IMG/VR virus record: IMGVR_UViG_3300005253_000613
Location: 1-60,685 of that record
Reading direction: 5' to 3' (one strand)
DNA: 60,685 nt
From: a virus
The translations under genes were made by a program, and so were the position numbers. Below are positions 5,255 through 51,661 of the stretch, in pieces (within the stretch, counting starts at the first letter, position 1; each line of letters starts with the position of its first letter). The notes under the pieces are model-generated. The model saw only the letters and a program-made list of their open reading frames with translations. It was not told the DNA's origin and did not search any database.

Positions 5255-5630
5255 AATCTTTTCCTTTCTTAATTGTTTTAACATGGTTGTTTTTAATTTT
5301 ACGTCTTAAGATTTTGTGTTCGCTTGAATTTGGTATAATGGTTAATAAATATTCACACTCATGTGAAGTAAGGCACATATAAACCGCTTGTGTACCGTCC
5401 CATTTAGTCATCTGTCTCTGGAGATATTTTCTGTTGCTTTCACAATATTCCTGAGCCACTAATCTGCAATGCTTTTCATCGGGACTGCTAAATTCCTTGA
5501 CAGTACCGTCAGGATGGAAACACCTGTATATATGCTGCATACCTTCCGGACTATCGACATAAGATGATGTCACTTCAATATTATTGATGACGAATTGTTT
5601 AGTCCCCTTTTTAGCGTCTGGGTTTTTCAT
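5238..5630 (-). CDS. Uncharacterised protein
   Basis: 130 residues, soluble, with scattered Cys and His but no clear metal motif. No family recognised. It overlaps its downstream neighbour by 17 nt and the upstream gene by 4 nt. Confidence 0.5.
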   Translation of the reverse strand: MKNPDAKKGTKQFVINNIEVTSSYVDSPEGMQHIYRCFHPDGTVKEFSSPDEKHCRLVAQEYCESNRKYLQRQMTKWDGTQAVYMCLTSHECEYLLTIIPNSSEHKILRRKIKNNHVKTIKKGKDYAARI

Positions 5631-5809
5631 TGTTTCCCTGTAAAATTTGTTAAGAATCGACGGTTTTTAACACGTAATCGCCTTTTTATAGACTGGCTTA
5701 TCGAGTAAAACGGTGGGCTGCATTGGGCTCCATGAGTTACCCGTTGTTTAAGCATGTGTGTAATTACAGCATATATACCAGGGTCATATTTAAATTTTAG
5801 TATTTTCAT
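5627..5809 (-). CDS. Small 'MKI...KRRLR' family protein
   Basis: 60 residues. It begins 'MKILKF' and carries 'SIKRRLRVKN' near the end, the same N- and C-terminal signature as the small proteins encoded at 34.8-39.8 kb. It is the only clear member on the minus strand and outside that cluster. Its overlap with both neighbours (4 nt downstream, 20 nt upstream) supports translation as part of the operon. Function unknown. Confidence 0.5.
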   Translation of the reverse strand: MKILKFKYDPGIYAVITHMLKQRVTHGAQCSPPFYSISQSIKRRLRVKNRRFLTNFTGKQ

Positions 5810-32534: not shown

Positions 32535-32927
32535 GATACTTGAAGAATTTCCCGCTAAAACACTTAAAACGAAAATATTAAAAATAACAGGGCATCCTTA
32601 TCTGAATACTTCTATCAATTATAAAGGATTAGTAATATCAGGGAGATTGGTAGTAGAGCGGGTGGCTCCACAAAGTGCTGGAATTAAGGGTTATATAATT
32701 AGGAGACTACATGGAAGTAATAGCTATAAAAGAAAAGATAAAGTCTGAGGTGCATAAACGGATACTAGGGAGTTGTCATGTTCCTATATTAAGCCTTAAG
32801 ATGGCAGGAGAGGTGCGGAGGGAATTGCGAGGATTAGACCCTGCTATTATGATTGCAATTAAAAGAAAACTACGTAGTTAAGTACAGCTAAAATCGCTGA
32901 TACTTGAAGAATTTCCCGCTAAAACAC
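32535..32927 (+). repeat. 29-bp direct repeats (32535-32563 and 32899-32927)
   Basis: Two identical 29-nt copies, beginning GATACTTGAAG and ending CTAAAACAC, with degenerate similarity continuing upstream. They are 364 nt apart and bracket a small intact gene. Deletion or duplication between such repeats may explain the decay of the module. Confidence 0.8.
32711..32881 (+). CDS. Small protein ending in 'IKRKLRS' (MKI/KRRLRE family-like)
   Basis: 56 residues, with AGGAG six bases upstream of the start, a strong site. The basic C-terminal 'MIAIKRKLRS' fits the signature of the small proteins at 34.8-39.8 kb; the N-terminus ('MEVIAIKEK') is looser. Intact in the midst of remnants. Confidence 0.5.
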   Translation: MEVIAIKEKIKSEVHKRILGSCHVPILSLKMAGEVRRELRGLDPAIMIAIKRKLRS

Positions 32928-33001: not shown

Positions 33002-33505
33002 ATGAACATATCAGAAATAGAAAACACAGTTATATTTGGTGACGCTTTGGAACAGGTCAGGAAACTGACGGACAAGTCTGTCAATTGTGTTATTACCTCC
33101 CCGCCTTACTGGCAATTGCGGTGCTACGGATTTGACGGTCAGTGGGGATGGGAACCGACGTTTCAGGAATATCTCGAAAATCTCTGGAGTTTAATGGATG
33201 AGATATATCGAGTGCTTACGGATGACGGAACTGTTTTTATCAACTTGGGTGATTCTTACGCAAGTAAAGGCTCTGGCCGTGAGCCAGGTTCAGGCAAGTT
33301 TCAATACGAATTTAATAAGTAAGCCAATTATCGCAGGTTGCCCGGAAGGAGGAGTTATCCTTGATCCGTTCTGTGGGACGGGAACCACGTTAATACGTGC
33401 TATTGAGTTGAACCGTAAATTCATATAGACGGGAAGAAGGAATACTGTGTTATAGCTAATAAAAGAATTAAGCCATTATTGAAACAAACAAATATATTTG
33501 ATTAA
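33002..33505 (+). pseudogene. Decayed DNA N4-cytosine/N6-adenine methyltransferase gene
   Basis: An N-terminal part of 106 codons includes the catalytic 'TSPPYWQLRCYG' (motif IV), then stops at 33322. The frame at 33323-33428 has 'GGVILDPFCGTGTTLIRAIE' (SAM-binding motif I), and a third frame continues 'KKEYCVIANKRIKPLL' to 33505. The intact family is about 250-350 residues, so the central target-recognition part is deleted and at least two frameshifts are present. Not expected to be active. Confidence 0.8.
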
Positions 33506-33621: not shown

Positions 33622-33650
33622 TTGACAATGTAATTTAAATGATTTATATT
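33622..33650 (+). promoter_or_regulatory. Rightward promoter
   Basis: TTGACA (33622-33627), exactly 17 nt, TATATT (33645-33650): nearly perfect sigma-70 boxes. It follows the terminator and precedes the gene at 33685, so it should drive the 33.7-39.8 kb operon. Confidence 0.85.
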
Positions 33651-33684: not shown

Positions 33685-33912
33685 ATGGAACAAGATAACT
33701 TAATAGCGATCTGCCCTACTGACAGGCTGCCGGAAAGGTATCCTAATATAGGGAAAAGCGATGATATATTATTTATGCCTCATAAGTTTGACAAGGCATA
33801 TAAGGGTTTTACACGGAAAATAGGTCACAACAGGGATATATTAATATTTCAGGATTACAATAATAACGTATGGCATGTTTCAGAAATACATCGGTGGTAT
33901 GAACTGCCATGA
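33685..33912 (+). CDS. Uncharacterised small protein
   Basis: 75 residues, mixed alpha/beta with a Trp-containing C-terminus ('VWHVSEIHRWYELP'). First gene behind the promoter at 33622, about 28 nt after the likely start of transcription. No family recognised. Confidence 0.5.
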   Translation: MEQDNLIAICPTDRLPERYPNIGKSDDILFMPHKFDKAYKGFTRKIGHNRDILIFQDYNNNVWHVSEIHRWYELP

Positions 33913-34112
33913 AGAAGGGACTTACAATATATTCGCCAATGGATATATCACGTCATTATCACCGATTATCTGACAGGGAAAAGGCTGACATATTAGATCA
34001 CATTATCAATGAAGACACTATTGCCACAAGCTCTTTTGGTTTTCTAAGAATAGCTATGGGTTATGAGTTAATAGGGTATAATGAATATATTAAAAAGTCT
34101 GAACTACCATGA
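33909..34112 (+). CDS. Uncharacterised small protein
   Basis: 67 residues, helical, linked by ATGA overlaps to both neighbours. No family recognised. Confidence 0.5.
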   Translation: MKKGLTIYSPMDISRHYHRLSDREKADILDHIINEDTIATSSFGFLRIAMGYELIGYNEYIKKSELP

Positions 34113-34354
34113 AATACGCTAAATTAAAAAATATAGAAGAAAACAAGCGATATGGTGTATCCTTTTGGCCGGGTGGCGTATATCCAGTAGACAGAGAATA
34201 TAAAAAATCAGTTAGAATAAAGGGAGTGTTCTATGAATTAAATATATTTTTTGATGGAAATAAAACAAACATCCAGGAATATAATGAAACAACAGCAAGA
34301 TTGATACCACGAGAACAAATAGAATGTATAAATGAATTGTCGGAGTTGATGTGA
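34109..34354 (+). CDS. Uncharacterised small protein
   Basis: 81 residues, beta-rich ('RYGVSFWPGGVYPVDREY'). ATGA overlap with the gene before. No family recognised. Confidence 0.5.
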   Translation: MKYAKLKNIEENKRYGVSFWPGGVYPVDREYKKSVRIKGVFYELNIFFDGNKTNIQEYNETTARLIPREQIECINELSELM

Positions 34355-34497
34355 TTGATTATACACCACAAGAACGTGAATTTGTTGATGCGATGTCAGA
34401 AATACTTAGAAGAGGCCCTAAATATAGTAGTTTAAAAGAAGCAAAGGTAGCTATTGAGCATTTTAAAAAGGGAATAGTATATTACAACATAGATTAA
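34351..34497 (+). CDS. Small helical protein (GTG start)
   Basis: 48 residues from a GTG that overlaps the previous TGA. Helical ('FVDAMSEILRRGPKYSSLKE'). Coding is supported by the tight coupling. Confidence 0.45.
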   Translation: MIDYTPQEREFVDAMSEILRRGPKYSSLKEAKVAIEHFKKGIVYYNID

Positions 34498-34507
34498 TGA
34501 AACTGAA

Positions 34508-34813
34508 ATGAAAGCCTATCATCAAGTCGAATTCAAAGATTTAACACCTGACCTTGAAATATTATCGGATGTTATCGGTATTGAGAATGTTAGGTTGTTA
34601 ATAGAAAAAGTATCGGGTGTTCAGTTCCGCATACCAAGATTGCCTACATTAAATGGCTTTTGCAGAAAATATATTAAAAACAATATAGAAAAGAGCAATA
34701 TGGTTTTAGCTTTTGAACTTGATAGTTCTGATAATTTTGTTAGATTGTTGAAAATACAAATAAAGAAGGAAGAAAAAGACAAAGAAGAAATGTTAAAACG
34801 GTTATATGGATGA
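34508..34813 (+). CDS. Mor-like putative transcription regulator
   Basis: 101 residues. 'LEILSDVIGIENVRLLIEKV' and 'VQFRIPRLPTLNGF' resemble the dimerisation part of Mor-type activators (Ile/Leu-rich helix, then 'GGxxxYIP'). A helix-turn-helix might lie in the rest, but the C-terminus is a charged coil. The resemblance is weak. If true, it may regulate the late genes downstream. Confidence 0.4.
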   Translation: MKAYHQVEFKDLTPDLEILSDVIGIENVRLLIEKVSGVQFRIPRLPTLNGFCRKYIKNNIEKSNMVLAFELDSSDNFVRLLKIQIKKEEKDKEEMLKRLYG

Positions 34814-35073
34814 AAATAATAACCAATCATATATTATGGAATTGCGGCCCGCCCGGAATATATGCACGTTTTGCTGATTTTGATAGAGATGGGAATATTA
34901 TTGAGAGGGGCATCTGCGAAAAATATGGGGCATTCAAATATATGAAGTCTTCACGAAGGATTGGTGAGATAATTCCAAATATAATTATAGAAACGAATAT
35001 CGGTTTATTAACCAATTTAAAAATAATATCAGTAACAGGATTTCTAAATAAACGATTAAAGGAGAATTTATGA
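34810..35073 (+). CDS. MKI/KRRLRE family small protein
   Basis: 87 residues, 'MKIITNHIL...' at the start and '...GFLNKRLKENL' at the end. Middle beta-rich. ATGA overlap with the previous gene. Function unknown. Confidence 0.5.
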   Translation: MKIITNHILWNCGPPGIYARFADFDRDGNIIERGICEKYGAFKYMKSSRRIGEIIPNIIIETNIGLLTNLKIISVTGFLNKRLKENL

Positions 35074-35303
35074 GACACGTAATTGCACACGGAGAAAGCG
35101 GGAATACCCACGCTATTTTGGATGATGTCATTATTTCAGAAAAAGATGGCAATAAAGTCATCAAAGCGGATAAACCCTACACTGCTATCCATGAAGAACA
35201 TGGCCCAATAACTATTAATCCCGAAACCAAAGGTGATGTAACCGTCGGTTTTGTTCAGGAATTCGATCACGCAGAAGAAGAAGCAAAGAATGTGATAGAT
35301 TGA
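35070..35303 (+). CDS. Conserved small protein ('HGESGNTHA' type)
   Basis: 77 residues. 'RHVIAHGESGNTHAILDDV' and 'HEEHGPITINPE' followed by 'VGFVQEFDHAEEEAKNVID' match a widespread small family encoded near DUF6745-like genes in phages and bacteria; one lies just downstream here. Beta-barrel-like. No known function. AAAGGAG lies upstream. Confidence 0.55.
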   Translation: MRHVIAHGESGNTHAILDDVIISEKDGNKVIKADKPYTAIHEEHGPITINPETKGDVTVGFVQEFDHAEEEAKNVID

Positions 35304-35650
35304 AAGTATTAAACATCACTGGCATAGAGCAAATAGGCCCAGATGGTACACCTATCATTTTTTTAGCTCATAATGTAAATGTCGTTTTGAATAAGGGTGC
35401 GCCCCTGCCTTATTTAGATTTCTCGGCGGCTAATTCAAAATTTCCATTTCTTGCCTTTACGGAAGAAGAACAAAAGCAAAGAGAAATAAGGTATTTATTT
35501 GGTATTAGCGTAAGCCTGTTACGCAATATTCCAGGGGATAATGTCATTAATATGTTAAATATAAAACTGAGGGGGATTATTCCTGCCCCCGGACGGCAAT
35601 GGAATTATTTTGATATGCTCGAATATAAAAAAAGATATGGTATTGAATGA
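35300..35650 (+). CDS. Uncharacterised protein (TTG start)
   Basis: 116 residues. The TTG start overlaps the preceding TGA. Mixed alpha/beta, Pro-rich in the second half ('GIIPAPGRQWNYFDMLEYKK'). No family recognised. Confidence 0.5.
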   Translation: MKVLNITGIEQIGPDGTPIIFLAHNVNVVLNKGAPLPYLDFSAANSKFPFLAFTEEEQKQREIRYLFGISVSLLRNIPGDNVINMLNIKLRGIIPAPGRQWNYFDMLEYKKRYGIE

Positions 35651-35874
35651 AAATATTAGATGTTATATATAGATGTAACATTGGTAGAGGCTGCAAGTAT
35701 GCGCCTATTGTAGCCGACTATTTTTATACCGCATATAGGTTTACGCCGCCCGGATGCCGGGGTTTAATCTCATCTGACCGAATAATAACAGATGATGGCT
35801 ATTTAAGTGATTTGCAAGTAATGCCGGATAATACTATAAGAATTTTAACTCAACATTTAAGGGAAAAACTATGA
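35647..35874 (+). CDS. MKI/KRRLRE family small protein
   Basis: 75 residues, 'MKILDVIYRCNIG...' to '...IRILTQHLREKL'. It shares the N-terminal strand and C-terminal 'LRE' helix with other members. ATGA overlap with both neighbours. Confidence 0.5.
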   Translation: MKILDVIYRCNIGRGCKYAPIVADYFYTAYRFTPPGCRGLISSDRIITDDGYLSDLQVMPDNTIRILTQHLREKL

Positions 35875-36872
35875 TAGAACGAATTGATGAATTAACACCA
35901 GATCAAGAAGCCCGGATGCCGGAGTTCAAAGAAAAATGGACTAAGATTAATTTGTCTACCGCTGAATGCGATAGGGACCAAGCTAAATACTGGATGGATG
36001 AAGCCTACCGCTTAGCAGGTTATGAACCTGTAAATGAAATACATTGGGTGCGATCACCTAAAGAAGGGCTTGATCTTGCTAAGGATATGATGCTATCCGC
36101 TAATAACGACAATCGGGATTATATAGATGAATTAATCCATGGCTATAATTATGGCTGCCATGAAGCGAGTTATTTAAGTTTCTATGAATTCTTTTATGTA
36201 GTTTGCGAACTTGATATCCTTAAACCGCTTGTACCACAGTTTAATATAGCCCCACACTCTGGATGGTGGATACCATTCGATACTTGTATTATAGCATGTG
36301 CGAAACCAACATCTATTCATGTAGTGGGAGATGTATTGCATAAGGATTTAGTCCCTGCGGTAAATCATGCCGACGGCTTCGATGTTTATATTCTCAATGG
36401 GATATACATGCCGGATAATATTGTGATAACACCTGCCAATGAATTAGATTCGCAATTAATATTAAGTGAGGGGAATGTAGATGTAAGACGAGAAATAATA
36501 AGGAAAATCGGCTATGATAAAATGTATGAAGATTTAGGCGGTGAAACAATAGAAACAGTTTCTATGACTGACCTGTATAAGAAACATTCGATATTATCCT
36601 ATGAACAACAAGGTGATGTGATATTTAAACCCGATAATCTTGAAGAAGTGAAATATAAAAATCTAAAAGATGATTTTAAGAAAAGCCTTGAAGGTAAATC
36701 TTATTCATTGGTTAATATGCGTTTCGGTGACGGTTCAAAGCCGTTCTTGGTTATGGATAATATGTCAATAGGTGCTAAACATGTGGAAGGAGTGCCACCG
36801 AATATTACTAATGTATTCGATGCAATATGCTTCCGTAACCAAATGAAAGGCCTGCCACAGGAATTGAAATGA
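35871..36872 (+). CDS. DUF6745-like protein
   Basis: 333 residues. 'YGCHEASYLSFYEFFYVVCE', then 'GWWIPFDTCIIACAKPTSIH', 'HADGFDVYILNGIYMP' and 'RREIIRKIGYDKMYEDLGGE' follow the motif order of DUF6745-type proteins, in which a GWW-(P)-(F/Y) motif and an x-DG-x-(x)-Y-x-x-(H/N)-G motif recur. Function unknown; in bacteria such genes travel with leucine-rich or zinc proteins. It is the largest gene of this operon and is ATGA-coupled. Confidence 0.55.
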   Translation: MIERIDELTPDQEARMPEFKEKWTKINLSTAECDRDQAKYWMDEAYRLAGYEPVNEIHWVRSPKEGLDLAKDMMLSANNDNRDYIDELIHGYNYGCHEASYLSFYEFFYVVCELDILKPLVPQFNIAPHSGWWIPFDTCIIACAKPTSIHVVGDVLHKDLVPAVNHADGFDVYILNGIYMPDNIVITPANELDSQLILSEGNVDVRREIIRKIGYDKMYEDLGGETIETVSMTDLYKKHSILSYEQQGDVIFKPDNLEEVKYKNLKDDFKKSLEGKSYSLVNMRFGDGSKPFLVMDNMSIGAKHVEGVPPNITNVFDAICFRNQMKGLPQELK

Positions 36873-37084
36873 AAATACTTAGACTAATATCACAAGAGAA
36901 ATCGGATTCATTACATGGTTTTACTACAAATAGTTCTATTGGTTTTAGATATACATGGAATTGTTGGCCAGGTGATTTATCTCACACTTTAGTGGAGCCA
37001 TATTATTTAGGCAGACCTATGTTATCCCAGAACAAACTTGAGATTATTAGGAAACTCAAGGAAAGGTTGAGGGAATTGAAATGA
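36869..37084 (+). CDS. MKI/KRRLRE family small protein
   Basis: 71 residues, 'MKILRLISQEK...' to '...IIRKLKERLRELK'. First of four consecutive members linked by ATGA-type overlaps. Confidence 0.55.
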   Translation: MKILRLISQEKSDSLHGFTTNSSIGFRYTWNCWPGDLSHTLVEPYYLGRPMLSQNKLEIIRKLKERLRELK

Positions 37085-37323
37085 AAATAATTAAAGAATT
37101 TGGGACAGATTACATCTTAGGTAACAAATTCTTTTATAATGATTATACTGTTGAAAATCAACCAATTATTATATTTTGTCACGAGCCTGGAAAGACCTTT
37201 AATCACATTAGCTTATCTATACCATTATTTAAGAGGATTCACTCAACACTGTATAATCTTTCTCCTGTGGATTTGGATGAAAAGATCAAAAGGCGTTTAA
37301 ATGAAAGTCATAGATATAAATAA
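37081..37323 (+). CDS. MKI/KRRLRE family small protein
   Basis: 80 residues, 'MKIIKEFGTDY...' to '...DEKIKRRLNESHRYK'. It overlaps the next member by 23 nt in another frame. Confidence 0.55.
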   Translation: MKIIKEFGTDYILGNKFFYNDYTVENQPIIIFCHEPGKTFNHISLSIPLFKRIHSTLYNLSPVDLDEKIKRRLNESHRYK

Positions 37324-37477
37324 ATGTACTGATAATGCACAAAGGTTATGTTACAGAAGACATTTTCAATATGCGACTGCCAAGACACATGAGAAATTCG
37401 GCGATTTAACCCCAGTATTTCAATCATATTTCCGTATACCTGAAGTTGTAAAGAGGAAGCTAAGGGAATTAAAATGA
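37301..37477 (+). CDS. MKI/KRRLRE family small protein
   Basis: 58 residues, 'MKVIDINKCTDN...' to '...IPEVVKRKLRELK'. Its start lies inside the previous member, and its TGA overlaps the next ATG. Confidence 0.55.
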   Translation: MKVIDINKCTDNAQRLCYRRHFQYATAKTHEKFGDLTPVFQSYFRIPEVVKRKLRELK

Positions 37478-37719
37478 AAATACTAACAACTAGCAGTACG
37501 GTTGTAAAACCGGTCTACTGGGATTATAGATGGAGAAAGAGTATCCATATAAGTATATCTGATGGTATAGAGGTTATCATGAAGGCGAATGAGGTGTTAT
37601 ATACCACCCCAAAGGAATTTACAGATTGTATCGTGCCAGATTTTATAAGCTGCGACTTTGGAAGACATAACCCTCGTTCATTAGTTGCCGTACTTAAAAG
37701 GAAATTGCGTGAAAAATAA
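37474..37719 (+). CDS. MKI/KRRLRE family small protein
   Basis: 81 residues, 'MKILTTSSTVV...' to '...LVAVLKRKLREK'. Its last codons overlap the GTG start of the glycosyltransferase. Confidence 0.55.
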   Translation: MKILTTSSTVVKPVYWDYRWRKSIHISISDGIEVIMKANEVLYTTPKEFTDCIVPDFISCDFGRHNPRSLVAVLKRKLREK

Positions 37720-38548
37720 TAGAACCACAGTATCATTAGTTATATTAGTTCATAATGTAAAAGATCACATTGAGTTGTGCTTGAAAAGTGCCTGTCAATT
37801 AGAGAACAGTATTGTTCCGTTAATAGATGAAGTGATTTTTGTTGACCATAATTCAACCGATGGGACTATAAATAAAGCGATAGATTACCTAAGTTCTTTA
37901 AATATTAAGCATAGCATAGCTCATTATACAGGTAAATTTGAGTTTGATAAAGCACGTAATATGGGTATAGCACTTTGTAATAGCAAAGTTATCCTTATGT
38001 TAGATGCAGACGAAAGGCTTGTAATCACACATGAAGAATTATTCCGGCAGTTTATAGATAATGTCAGTCATGGCTGGACGGCTGGGATTATGGCAACAAA
38101 AAACCCAACCACACAATACGATGGCAGCACTGACTTTATTGCTTCCGGTATGAGAAGGATATTCCCTAATGATGTCAGCTATTTTTACAAAACACCTATC
38201 CATGAAGTTCTCCAGCACCCGCCCGATGCTTTAATGGTTGCTGTGCCAGGTGCTTATATAGCACATTTAGGCTATGATATGTTCTTAAAAGAAATAGGTG
38301 AAAAATATGATAGGAATATGAAAGGACTTGTTAGTGAAATAGACAGAGATATTACTAATGGTGTGACTTGGTATTTCATAGGTAACACTTTGGGTTTGAA
38401 AGGAAAATTTATCGAACAAAAGCAGGCTTATGCTTTAGCACTTGTGCATGGTAAATTAGGGATTGGGATAGGAAATTATATAAAAGAAAAACTTGAGTAT
38501 TTAGAACAAAATTTAATTAACCAACGGTATTTAAAGGAGACATTATGA
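37709..38548 (+). CDS. Family 2 glycosyltransferase
   Basis: 279 residues from a GTG at 37709 (AAGGA eight bases upstream); a TTG at 37685 is the alternative. GT-A fold motifs: 'VSLVILVHNVKDHIELCLKS', 'VDHNSTDGT', 'ARNMGIALC' and the metal-binding 'LDADER', then 'HEVLQHPP', as in TPR-linked GT2 proteins. It would transfer a sugar from a nucleotide-sugar to an unknown acceptor, perhaps phage DNA, virion protein or host surface. It lies between small-protein genes and groES. Confidence 0.85.
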   Translation: MKNNRTTVSLVILVHNVKDHIELCLKSACQLENSIVPLIDEVIFVDHNSTDGTINKAIDYLSSLNIKHSIAHYTGKFEFDKARNMGIALCNSKVILMLDADERLVITHEELFRQFIDNVSHGWTAGIMATKNPTTQYDGSTDFIASGMRRIFPNDVSYFYKTPIHEVLQHPPDALMVAVPGAYIAHLGYDMFLKEIGEKYDRNMKGLVSEIDRDITNGVTWYFIGNTLGLKGKFIEQKQAYALALVHGKLGIGIGNYIKEKLEYLEQNLINQRYLKETL

Positions 38549-38862
38549 AGAAGTGCAATTTAACACTACTATATGATAATATATTAGTACGTGAAGATAA
38601 GCCGGATGACATATCGCCTGGTGGTATTCATATACCAGACATGGCCAAGCGGGCGAAAAGGGTTGGTGAGGTTTTTGCGGTGGGACACGGTAGATTATCA
38701 AGGATGACAGATGAGGTTATTCCTCTTATGGTTAAAGTAGGTGACAGGGTAAGAATTAAGGATTTTAGCTTAGATGAGATAGAATATGAAGGCGAAACTT
38801 TATTGCATTTACACGAATCTGATTTGCTCTGGATAGAAAGAGAGGAAGAAGATGAAGGATAA
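38545..38862 (+). CDS. groES: GroES-like co-chaperonin
   Basis: 105 residues, the length of Cpn10. 'LTLLYDNILVREDKPDDISP' and 'GGIHIPDMAKRAKRVGEVFA' with 'VGHGR', then 'VKVGDRVRIKDFSLDEIEYE' and 'LHLHESDLLWIE' match GroES throughout. The mobile loop ('DDISPGGIHIPD') that binds GroEL is intact. It would work with host GroEL, like T4 gp31, in capsid protein folding. ATGA-coupled to the glycosyltransferase. Confidence 0.9.
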   Translation: MKKCNLTLLYDNILVREDKPDDISPGGIHIPDMAKRAKRVGEVFAVGHGRLSRMTDEVIPLMVKVGDRVRIKDFSLDEIEYEGETLLHLHESDLLWIEREEEDEG

Positions 38863-39415
38863 ATTAATAACAGAAGAAGTAGACTACTTGGTGGAAAAAA
38901 AATTGGGGATTCAAGATGATGACTATTCAGAAAAAGCAAGGGAGAAATTAGAAAGCATCAAAGAAAAAGCAAAAGCCTTACTCCCTGATTTAAATAAGAT
39001 AAAAGAACAGGCTAAAGATCAGGGCGTGCCGGAGGATGAACACCCGCTCCCTGACCTGAAACGTCATGCAAAAATATATGACACACCATTACAGCCCAAT
39101 ACTGTGTCAGTTCTTAGTAAAAAGACAAAGCAAAGTTATCAGAAGGATATGAACTTCGACAGTACGAATTTGAATTATCTCTTCGGCTTTTACGCTTACA
39201 GGGCCATCCGAAGTTTTATTACACAAGCATTAAATGAGAAATCAGGCTTCCCTCAGACGGATAAAACTTATGCAGTATATCCTCATTTCTACAATATGAT
39301 GAAAAAATTCAAGGAAAAGGATTTCGACGATTTAAACAGGAAAAGCCAAGAACCGTTTATGAAAATAGGTGATAGGGCGCTAAGTAGCTTTATGGCCCAT
39401 TTATTGGAGAAGTGA
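38852..39415 (+). CDS. Uncharacterised charged protein
   Basis: 187 residues. The N-terminal 70 are Lys/Glu-rich helices; the rest has 'LNYLFGFYAYRAIRSFITQA'. No family recognised. It overlaps groES by 11 nt. By neighbourhood it may assist assembly. Confidence 0.55.
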   Translation: MKDKLITEEVDYLVEKKLGIQDDDYSEKAREKLESIKEKAKALLPDLNKIKEQAKDQGVPEDEHPLPDLKRHAKIYDTPLQPNTVSVLSKKTKQSYQKDMNFDSTNLNYLFGFYAYRAIRSFITQALNEKSGFPQTDKTYAVYPHFYNMMKKFKEKDFDDLNRKSQEPFMKIGDRALSSFMAHLLEK

Positions 39416-39416
39416 G

Positions 39417-39605
39417 ATGAAGATAATTTATAACCCCTTGTATGGACAGCATATTAACACTTCCTATCCGTTTTCCAAAAACGTTGGAGTGGTATCCTAT
39501 ACTGATATAACTAACATTGAATTGGCCAGTTATTTGTATCATTACTTTAAACAGCCCAATATCAAAAGATTAATACGGCGAAGGCTTAGAAATGAAAATA
39601 ATTAA
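39417..39605 (+). CDS. MKI/KRRLRE family small protein
   Basis: 62 residues, 'MKIIYNPLYGQ...' to '...IKRLIRRRLRNENN'. It overlaps the next member by 14 nt. Confidence 0.55.
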   Translation: MKIIYNPLYGQHINTSYPFSKNVGVVSYTDITNIELASYLYHYFKQPNIKRLIRRRLRNENN

Positions 39606-39786
39606 ACCATTACCATTATTACTAAAGCAATACAAAATACGTTCATACTCGAACCATCGAAGATATAATTGGGTCGGGGACAATTACTTAGATTGCAAGC
39701 TGCATCTTGCTAATGTGAGCGAGCTGCGTTTAGAACAAAATATAAATTGTGCAATTCATATCAAACGCCGTTTGTTAATGAAATGA
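39592..39786 (+). CDS. MKI/KRRLRE family small protein
   Basis: 64 residues, 'MKIIKPLPLLL...' to '...AIHIKRRLLMK'. Last member in the row and last gene of this operon before the promoter at 39772. Confidence 0.55.
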   Translation: MKIIKPLPLLLKQYKIRSYSNHRRYNWVGDNYLDCKLHLANVSELRLEQNINCAIHIKRRLLMK

Positions 39787-44754: not shown

Positions 44755-45801
44755 ATGGATTTAGAACTTACAGATCAAGAAAGAGAAGAATACCGTATCC
44801 AAATGGAAGGTACACCCGAAGAAAAGACTGAATTAGAACAGGCGGGGCGTAAAGAAGAAGAAGTAGAGACCACCGAAGAACCGGAGCAACCAACCGAGGA
44901 ACCGATTAAAGAACCAGTGGAATCTACCCAAGAACCGGTAGTAGAAACCACCGAAGAACCAGTGGTGGAATCTACCGAAGAAGAGGACGCTTTCGCTGGT
45001 ATGAAAATACCTATATCAGTAACAAATGAAGAAGGTGAAGCAGTCATAGAAGAAATACCCTATGACCAGCTTGTTCAAGAACATAATGCTTTTATAGCTA
45101 TCAAGGAACAATCAGAAGCGGATAAAAATTATGTAAGTCAGGCATCTCCTATAATAGAGGCTTTCAATAAAAGTAAAGTTCTACAAGATGCTTTAATGTA
45201 TTTGAAACAAGGATATAATGATGAACAAGTCAAGCAAGGTTTGATGCAATTTTGGAGCGATGCAAAAACTGAGCCGGGAGAAGATGATTCTCAGACTGAC
45301 TATAACAAGGATATGGCTGAGCTTAATAACCGAATGCTGAGAGCAGAAAAAATTGCAGGCCAGCAAGCCGACCAATTAAAGAAGCAACAGGTTTGGAATG
45401 AGAATGAAGCGGTATTGCAGAAGGCTGTGAGAAAATATGGGCTTGATCCCAAGCAGGTTGAAACTGATCCTGAATTCCAGCAAAAATTAAATAGTTCATT
45501 TACTCAATTTTATGGGAACATGGACCTTACAATGGAAGTGCTGAACCAGAATCAGGCCAATGGTATTATAAACCATGCTTTAAATGTTATAGGTAATACA
45601 ACACACGCAGACGCACGTAAGCAAACTGCTGAATTAGTGCGTGCTAAATCAATTGTCAAGAAAACGCAAGCTCCAACTATACTCCAGGGACGAACAGCAA
45701 CCAACCGTGATGGCAGTGGCGGCACGCAGGAAAAAGAAAAACAATGGCCTGCGAGCGGAGTGCCTATGGCTGAGAGGGTGCGTCGTTGGGAAGAAATTTA
45801 A
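44755..45801 (+). CDS. Scaffolding protein
   Basis: 348 residues between portal and capsid genes, the usual place. Residues 25-80 are a Glu/Pro/Thr-rich acidic repeat ('EEPVVESTEEED' and variants). The rest is helical and charged, ending in a basic segment near the C-terminus that could bind the capsid protein. ATAGGAG is upstream. Confidence 0.8.
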   Translation: MDLELTDQEREEYRIQMEGTPEEKTELEQAGRKEEEVETTEEPEQPTEEPIKEPVESTQEPVVETTEEPVVESTEEEDAFAGMKIPISVTNEEGEAVIEEIPYDQLVQEHNAFIAIKEQSEADKNYVSQASPIIEAFNKSKVLQDALMYLKQGYNDEQVKQGLMQFWSDAKTEPGEDDSQTDYNKDMAELNNRMLRAEKIAGQQADQLKKQQVWNENEAVLQKAVRKYGLDPKQVETDPEFQQKLNSSFTQFYGNMDLTMEVLNQNQANGIINHALNVIGNTTHADARKQTAELVRAKSIVKKTQAPTILQGRTATNRDGSGGTQEKEKQWPASGVPMAERVRRWEEI

Positions 45802-50921: not shown

Positions 50922-51661
50922 CGGGCCGGGATTATATAGATGAATTAATATTGAGGCTGGCAAGACATGATGTTAGCACAGATATGAATACACCGTCTTT
51001 ATTAACTTTTATCAACAGGGCAAGACAAAGGGTCCAGAAAGCAACCATGCCCTTATACCCTGAACGTTATGGTAAAATATTCAGATTCTCAGTAGGTGGC
51101 CCTATCGGTAGTAACGGTTTTTTAACACTACAATTACCAATAGATTTTTTGGACGTTTTTGTTATATTATTGGAATGGCGGGCATCGTCAAATGTGACTT
51201 ACAGGACAGAAGCCCGTAGAACGGATGCACGTGAAATATCTAGTGTAGTGGAACATTCATGGAACGGGCCGTCGGAATGGACACCCGTTTACACTATTCA
51301 GAGGCCCATCAATTCCAGTCCGCCGTTTGTGACCGATTATTATTATAATTGTCTGATTTCATTAGGTGCTAACGGGCAGGCATTTTTAGATAATGTGACA
51401 AATGTTGTAGCCGAAATAGTTTACACGTCCGCATTGGATGATTTGGAACTTGATGACGATGACGAGACAATACCTGTTGATGTAGAAGAATTGGTGATTT
51501 ATTATGCCATGCTATTATCATTGCAACGCTCACAGGAAGAAATAGCCGTACAAAGCGTTCAGGCAGAAATTAATATGTTAATGGAATTATTCAAAACCAC
51601 TTATGATGTTGGCAAAGCTAAAGAGACCGTTCTATTGCCAAGTAAAGAAGGAGAGGACTAA
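50918..51661 (+). CDS. Neck/adaptor-like protein 4
   Basis: 247 residues, ATGA-coupled. 'SLLTFINRARQRVQKATMPL' and 'LQLPIDFLDVFVILLEWRAS', 'EWTPVYTIQRPINSSPPFV' and 'IPVDVEELVIYYAMLLSLQR' line up with the protein encoded just before it. The closest pair of the five. Confidence 0.55.
   Translation: MTGRDYIDELILRLARHDVSTDMNTPSLLTFINRARQRVQKATMPLYPERYGKIFRFSVGGPIGSNGFLTLQLPIDFLDVFVILLEWRASSNVTYRTEARRTDAREISSVVEHSWNGPSEWTPVYTIQRPINSSPPFVTDYYYNCLISLGANGQAFLDNVTNVVAEIVYTSALDDLELDDDDETIPVDVEELVIYYAMLLSLQRSQEEIAVQSVQAEINMLMELFKTTYDVGKAKETVLLPSKEGED

Follow-up and report, generated by a model that had tools for sequence, protein, structure and literature searches.

The accessory array and its small genes

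The window analyzed here is a virus record of 60,685 bases, taken as a whole; it comes from a tailed phage whose terminase, portal, and major capsid genes are located at 41 to 47 kb. An accessory array immediately ahead of the packaging and capsid genes carries genes for a DUF6745 protein, a GT2 glycosyltransferase, and GroES. It also holds five core members of a set of small proteins with a common C-terminal tag, as well as the weak 36869. Two core members are found outside the array (genes are named here by their lowest coordinate).

5627..5809, minus strand: core member outside the array, 60 aa; tag IKRRLRV, core codons 5689-5675
32711..32881, plus strand: core member outside the array, 56 aa; tag IKRKLRS, core codons 32858-32872
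33685..39786, plus strand: accessory array of small genes, most of them overlapping
34810..35073, plus strand: nonmember by profile; MKI start; tail NKRLKENL, 6.7 bits
35647..35874, plus strand: nonmember by profile; MKI start; tail TQHLREKL, 5.0 bits
36869..37084, plus strand: weaker member, 71 aa; tail LKERLRELK, 14.7 bits versus 19 to 21
37081..37323, plus strand: core member, 80 aa; tag IKRRLNE, core codons 37285-37299
37301..37477, plus strand: core member, 58 aa; tag VKRKLRELK, core codons 37448-37462; leave-one-out rank 1
37474..37719, plus strand: core member, 81 aa; tag LKRKLREK, core codons 37693-37707
39417..39605, plus strand: core member, 62 aa; tag IRRRLRN, core codons 39573-39587
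39592..39786, plus strand: core member, 64 aa; tag IKRRLLMK, core codons 39760-39774 (AAA CGC CGT, no Shine-Dalgarno sequence)

An earlier note had grouped eight of these open reading frames (34810, 35647, 36869, 37081, 37301, 37474, 39417, and 39592) by an MKI-like start and a basic end and had named 32711 and 5627 as further likely members. All eight were recovered with the same coordinates and sizes, the two extra candidates also exist, and 36869, 37081, 37301, and 37474 are indeed consecutive, overlapping by 4, 23, and 4 bases. Of the six frames, the annotated one has the highest codon score in each of the ten ORFs, although these scores are lower than those of other small genes in the same phage. 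The tagged family is smaller and more mixed than that note described. The tag is present in five of the eight (37081, 37301, 37474, 39417, and 39592), weaker in 36869, and missing from 34810 and 35647, which share with the core only L[KR]E and whose scores of 6.7 and 5.0 bits are background, reached by 2 to 4% of unrelated ORF tails. Both 32711 and 5627 carry it; the former starts with MEV instead of the MKI attributed to it, and in the latter the tag IKRRLRV is followed by 14 further residues instead of forming the end. Gene 37474 overlaps the GTG start (37709) of the GT2 glycosyltransferase gene, and 120 bases separate 32711 from the next gene.

Several other features of this region can be listed. 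The phage-encoded GroES (Cpn10; Pfam E value, 7.5e-18) lies mid-array, at 38545-38862. A DNA methylase gene (N6_N4_Mtase, 33002-33428) is split over two overlapping frames, with the SPPYW and DPFCGTG parts in different frames, and is apparently a broken remnant. An exact 23-base repeat (36114-36136 and 50927-50949) encodes RDYIDELI both in the DUF6745 protein and in a gene of the structural block. The array contains a second pair of like tails, in which neighboring proteins end in WYELP and KSELP just 5' of the next ATGAA (junctions 33909 and 34109). A sigma-70-like site at 33622 with an 11/12 match is at chance level (0.6 expected), and promoter signals gave no distinction between early and late for the array genes.

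The C-terminal tag and the common start

The C-terminal tag is shared beyond chance. Its full pattern is h-x3-h-[KR]-R-[KR]-L-[RKNL], with a whole signature of 12 to 15 residues. The core, [ILV][KR]R[KR]L, occurs seven times among the 108 predicted proteins of the window (17,900 residues), in every case no more than 20 residues from the C terminus of a protein of 56 to 81 residues. Tagged members were first chosen by eye on this tail feature, and chance and composition in the small basic proteins of an AT-rich phage would be in keeping with the shortness of the motif and with the look-alikes seen on one lysozyme and one antisense ORF. This reading is disfavored, and we regard it as very improbable: in 2,000 composition-preserving shuffles of each tail, the mean was 0.13 motif matches and the maximum was 2, with no shuffle equaling the observed seven, and 9 of the 108 window genes reach at least 12 bits with the window-trained tag profile versus 3 of 3,690 elsewhere. 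Among the first-round loci, which have related terminases, [KR]R[KR]L has 29 occurrences over 277,979 residues, of which a single one is in a tail.

A comparison of all pairs of tails with no preset motif gave 39 like pairs (null mean, 19.5; maximum, 29 in 20 shuffles), with the excess led by 37301, 32711, 5627, and 37474; no such excess is seen in the relatives. The common end also held up in a profile check of the last 15 residues. Profiles trained on six core members ranked the seventh at 1, 1, 1, 1, 1, 2, and 5 among ~1,220 six-frame segments, with single-member E values of only 0.03 to 5.

The lysozyme of the same phage (13367-13882; Pfam, 1.5e-25) ends in VKRRIKE and scores 12.7 bits; its likeness to the tag is probably due to chance, so that look-alikes of the tag do arise in this way. 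An unconstrained motif finder run on the tails returned a generic helix pattern (133 versus a null of 118, SD 7.6) and was dropped. In five of the seven members, a Pro residue precedes the tag core by 5 to 7 residues, which was noticed post hoc and is excluded from the evidence.

At the N terminus, six of the seven core members start with MK[IV][ILV], the exception being 32711 (MEV). Starts of the form MK[IVL][ILV] are found in 6/7 core members versus 5/63 other small genes (Fisher P of ~2e-5). The middles differ, as had been claimed: none of 91 pairs is above a Z of 3, and because the middles are without significant similarity, common descent is not demonstrated. The bodies, taken without the tag, are more basic (P = 0.014 for body pI and P = 0.006 for the Asp+Glu fraction, both computed on ten ORFs, including 34810 and 35647).

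The tag is predicted to form an amphipathic basic helix with a hydrophobic stripe and a basic face. It is helical in both AlphaFold2 models, of 37474 and 39417, with a pLDDT of 72 to 89 for this block and low confidence for the remainder (mean pLDDT of 52 and 65, respectively). The model of 37474 is confident only in the C-terminal helix, residues 68 to 80; that of 39417 shows two strands followed by two helices. A fold search of the low-confidence model against PDB gave no match below an E value of 6.

These data bear on the possibility that unrelated small domains each gained the same helix and were recruited through it to one host or phage partner. Such a modular origin, which we consider rather unlikely, would agree with the lack of anything detectable in common among the middles, with the occurrence of the tag at three separate places in the genome and on both strands, and with the tag being the only C-terminal segment in common. 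However, a bare C-terminal tag leaves unexplained the start strand MK[IVL][ILV], which is also common, and the tag has no known partner and no library match. The claim that it is attached to diverse domains could not be upheld: divergence of duplicates fits equally, and the low-confidence models establish no fold. It is also conceivable, if doubtful, that the tag is a phage-specific address on unrelated or freely diverging small effectors, by which one host or phage receptor would recruit the whole set.

The tag and the translational coupling junction

The array genes overlap, and their last codons hold the Shine-Dalgarno (SD) sequence of the next gene, 7 to 8 bases before its start. AGG or AAGG is found at this spacing in 34810, 35647, 36869, 37081, 37301, 37474, and 39417. 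Thus, the AAAGGAG in the tail of 34810 is the SD of 35070, and the AAGGGA in the tail of 35647 is the SD of 35871. SD-like motifs are present upstream of 53% of ATG genes versus ~10% at control positions. The repeated DNA of the gene starts, SD included, was confirmed, with the following reference copy.

36859..36892, plus strand: coupling-junction DNA, reference copy AGGAATTGAAATGAAAATACTT; repeat families D1 and D2

Other junction copies are located at 37071, 37465, and 39582. The junction GGAATTGAAATGAAAATACT has four copies of 20 nt with 80 to 95% identity to the reference, one of which follows the untagged DUF6745 gene. The tail NENN of 39417 overlaps the ATGAAAATAAT of the next gene, and the final residues of 39417 and 37081 are the ATGAAA of the next gene read in another frame.

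All of these features, including the junction copy behind an untagged gene, would be expected if the SD in the tail and the A-rich start (ATGAAAATA) were one DNA junction read in two frames, with the tag as a by-product of coupling. The junction does account for part of the "MKI...LRE(LK)" look that had been described, namely, L[KR]E, the tails ending in ELK, and, to some extent, the MKI starts, but not for the h-KR[KR]L core, which stands. The junction repeat covers neither 5627 nor 32711 nor the KR[KR] of 39592. In four core members (5627, 32711, 39592, and, for its KRK, 37301), KR[KR] lies outside any SD window and is encoded with AGA, CGC, CGT, or distant AGG codons. Furthermore, in a set of 462 SD-coupled genes taken from other phages and prophages, no gene scores as high as 12 bits with the tag profile (four further matches were the window's own loci and were set aside). 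As the sole cause of the tag, coupling is contradicted by the tags outside SD windows and by these 462 genes, and we judge this explanation unlikely.

The tag codons differ between copies, with Arg encoded by AGA, AGG, CGA, CGC, or CGG and Leu by CTA, TTA, TTG, or CTT. The tag is therefore not a copied DNA repeat, and the diversity of its codons points to a constraint at the protein level.

Relatives, known systems, and the preferred explanation

The closest relatives found include L087, a contig binned as a Bacteroidia metagenome-assembled genome (MAG), with TerL 51 to 53% and portal 51%; further viral contigs have major capsid proteins 41 to 55% identical to that of the window. These relatives share the structural block, 40.8 to 57.3 kb. 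No host is named here, as a MAG bin indicates a host only weakly and SD-like sites are clearly in use in the phage and its relatives. Over the sequence covered, homologues of the array genes (33.7 to 39.8 kb) are absent from the structural-gene relatives, with the exception of a weak GT2 match, which indicates that the array is accessory and lineage specific. The tag was likewise absent from 15 structural-gene relatives (~694 ORFs; two contigs whole and the rest in part, mostly up to 10 kb on either side of the capsid gene). The tag had been called conserved, with a lack of retention in relatives named as grounds for refuting the idea; no retention was seen in these 15, although the tag-bearing genes are absent there as well. 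The relative L170 has a small-protein set of its own at 882-2377, upstream of the terminase, with like starts (MTESTKN... and MNESQKQ...), suggesting that duplication of small genes may be common in this phage group.

In line with the earlier note, the members match no named family: PHROGs, Pfam, PADLOC, PDB, and phage records contain no usable homologue. The curated defense and antidefense models of PADLOC gave one hit only, at chance level (E value, 0.011; 12.5 bits). Scans of viral contigs with 37081, the 187-aa neighbor 38852, the DUF6745 protein, or TerL alone produced no matches, as did a strict DNA pattern of tag plus junction. A loose tag pattern in the whole relatives is about as frequent as its reversed control, and across 99 bacterial genomes related to G001, the tag profile yielded nothing beyond chance-level hits. 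Small orphan proteins are numerous in phages and can hardly ever be assigned.

Three known systems offer partial parallels. The start-associated sequences of cluster K mycobacteriophages are short DNA segments, ribosome-binding site included, repeated at the starts of small genes. They resemble the gene-start DNA repeated in the small-gene runs of the window, but the cluster K repeat is DNA before the start, whereas the stronger signal of the window is a protein tail with differing codons. In Bacillus phage SPO1, T4, and other lytic phages, host takeover clusters are runs of small orphan genes that are closely packed, as are the genes described here, which are known from their sequence alone; to our knowledge, no C-terminal helix is shared in those clusters. 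The internal proteins of phage T4 carry capsid-targeting peptides and thus also present a short common peptide, which in T4 directs them to one place, on otherwise different small phage proteins. That signal is N-terminal, whereas the tag of the window is C-terminal.

A virion-loading role was considered because the scaffold, too, ends in a basic segment. The helix would then mimic the scaffold C terminus and load the small proteins into the procapsid for injection, in agreement with the position of the array upstream of the terminase-portal-scaffold-capsid genes and with a scaffold end of ERSKR[WL][DE]EL or similar in 3/4 relatives. However, the scaffold tail of the window is not among the best 24 tails for the tag profile, and none of those from the relatives exceeds 3.4 bits. 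These scores led us to reject mimicry of the scaffold, and a virion-targeting peptide appears highly unlikely. The putative scaffolds, assigned from the portal-capsid interval, end in ERSKR[WL][DE]EL in L168 and L170 and in ERVRRWEEI in the window (44755-45801), and these three proteins are only 20 to 26% identical overall despite their like tails.

The explanation that we prefer, with roughly an even chance of being correct, is that the members are lineage-specific, diverged duplicates that have kept a start strand and a C-terminal docking helix. Most of these small basic proteins (56 to 81 aa) are encoded in an accessory operon with translational coupling, and the set probably goes back to a single small gene that was duplicated repeatedly. 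The middles would have diverged beyond recognition, with the MK[IV][ILV] start strand and the C-terminal amphipathic basic helix being kept. The helix would most likely serve as a common docking or binding surface for one partner, of which an acidic protein, a nucleic acid, or a membrane face is a candidate, and different activities would come from the variable bodies. Inside the operon, the tag codons double as the SD of the next overlapping gene, which fixes some of the Arg and Glu residues. The motif, where it sits, the diversity of its codons, its absence from the covered sequence of the relatives, and its overlap with the SD are observations; common ancestry, docking, and any host-directed role of the members are what we infer here.

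For such operons, an SD inside the last codons of the upstream gene can counterfeit part of a protein tag, and the two layers can be separated. A shared binding helix would let a single pull-down find the partner of seven proteins.
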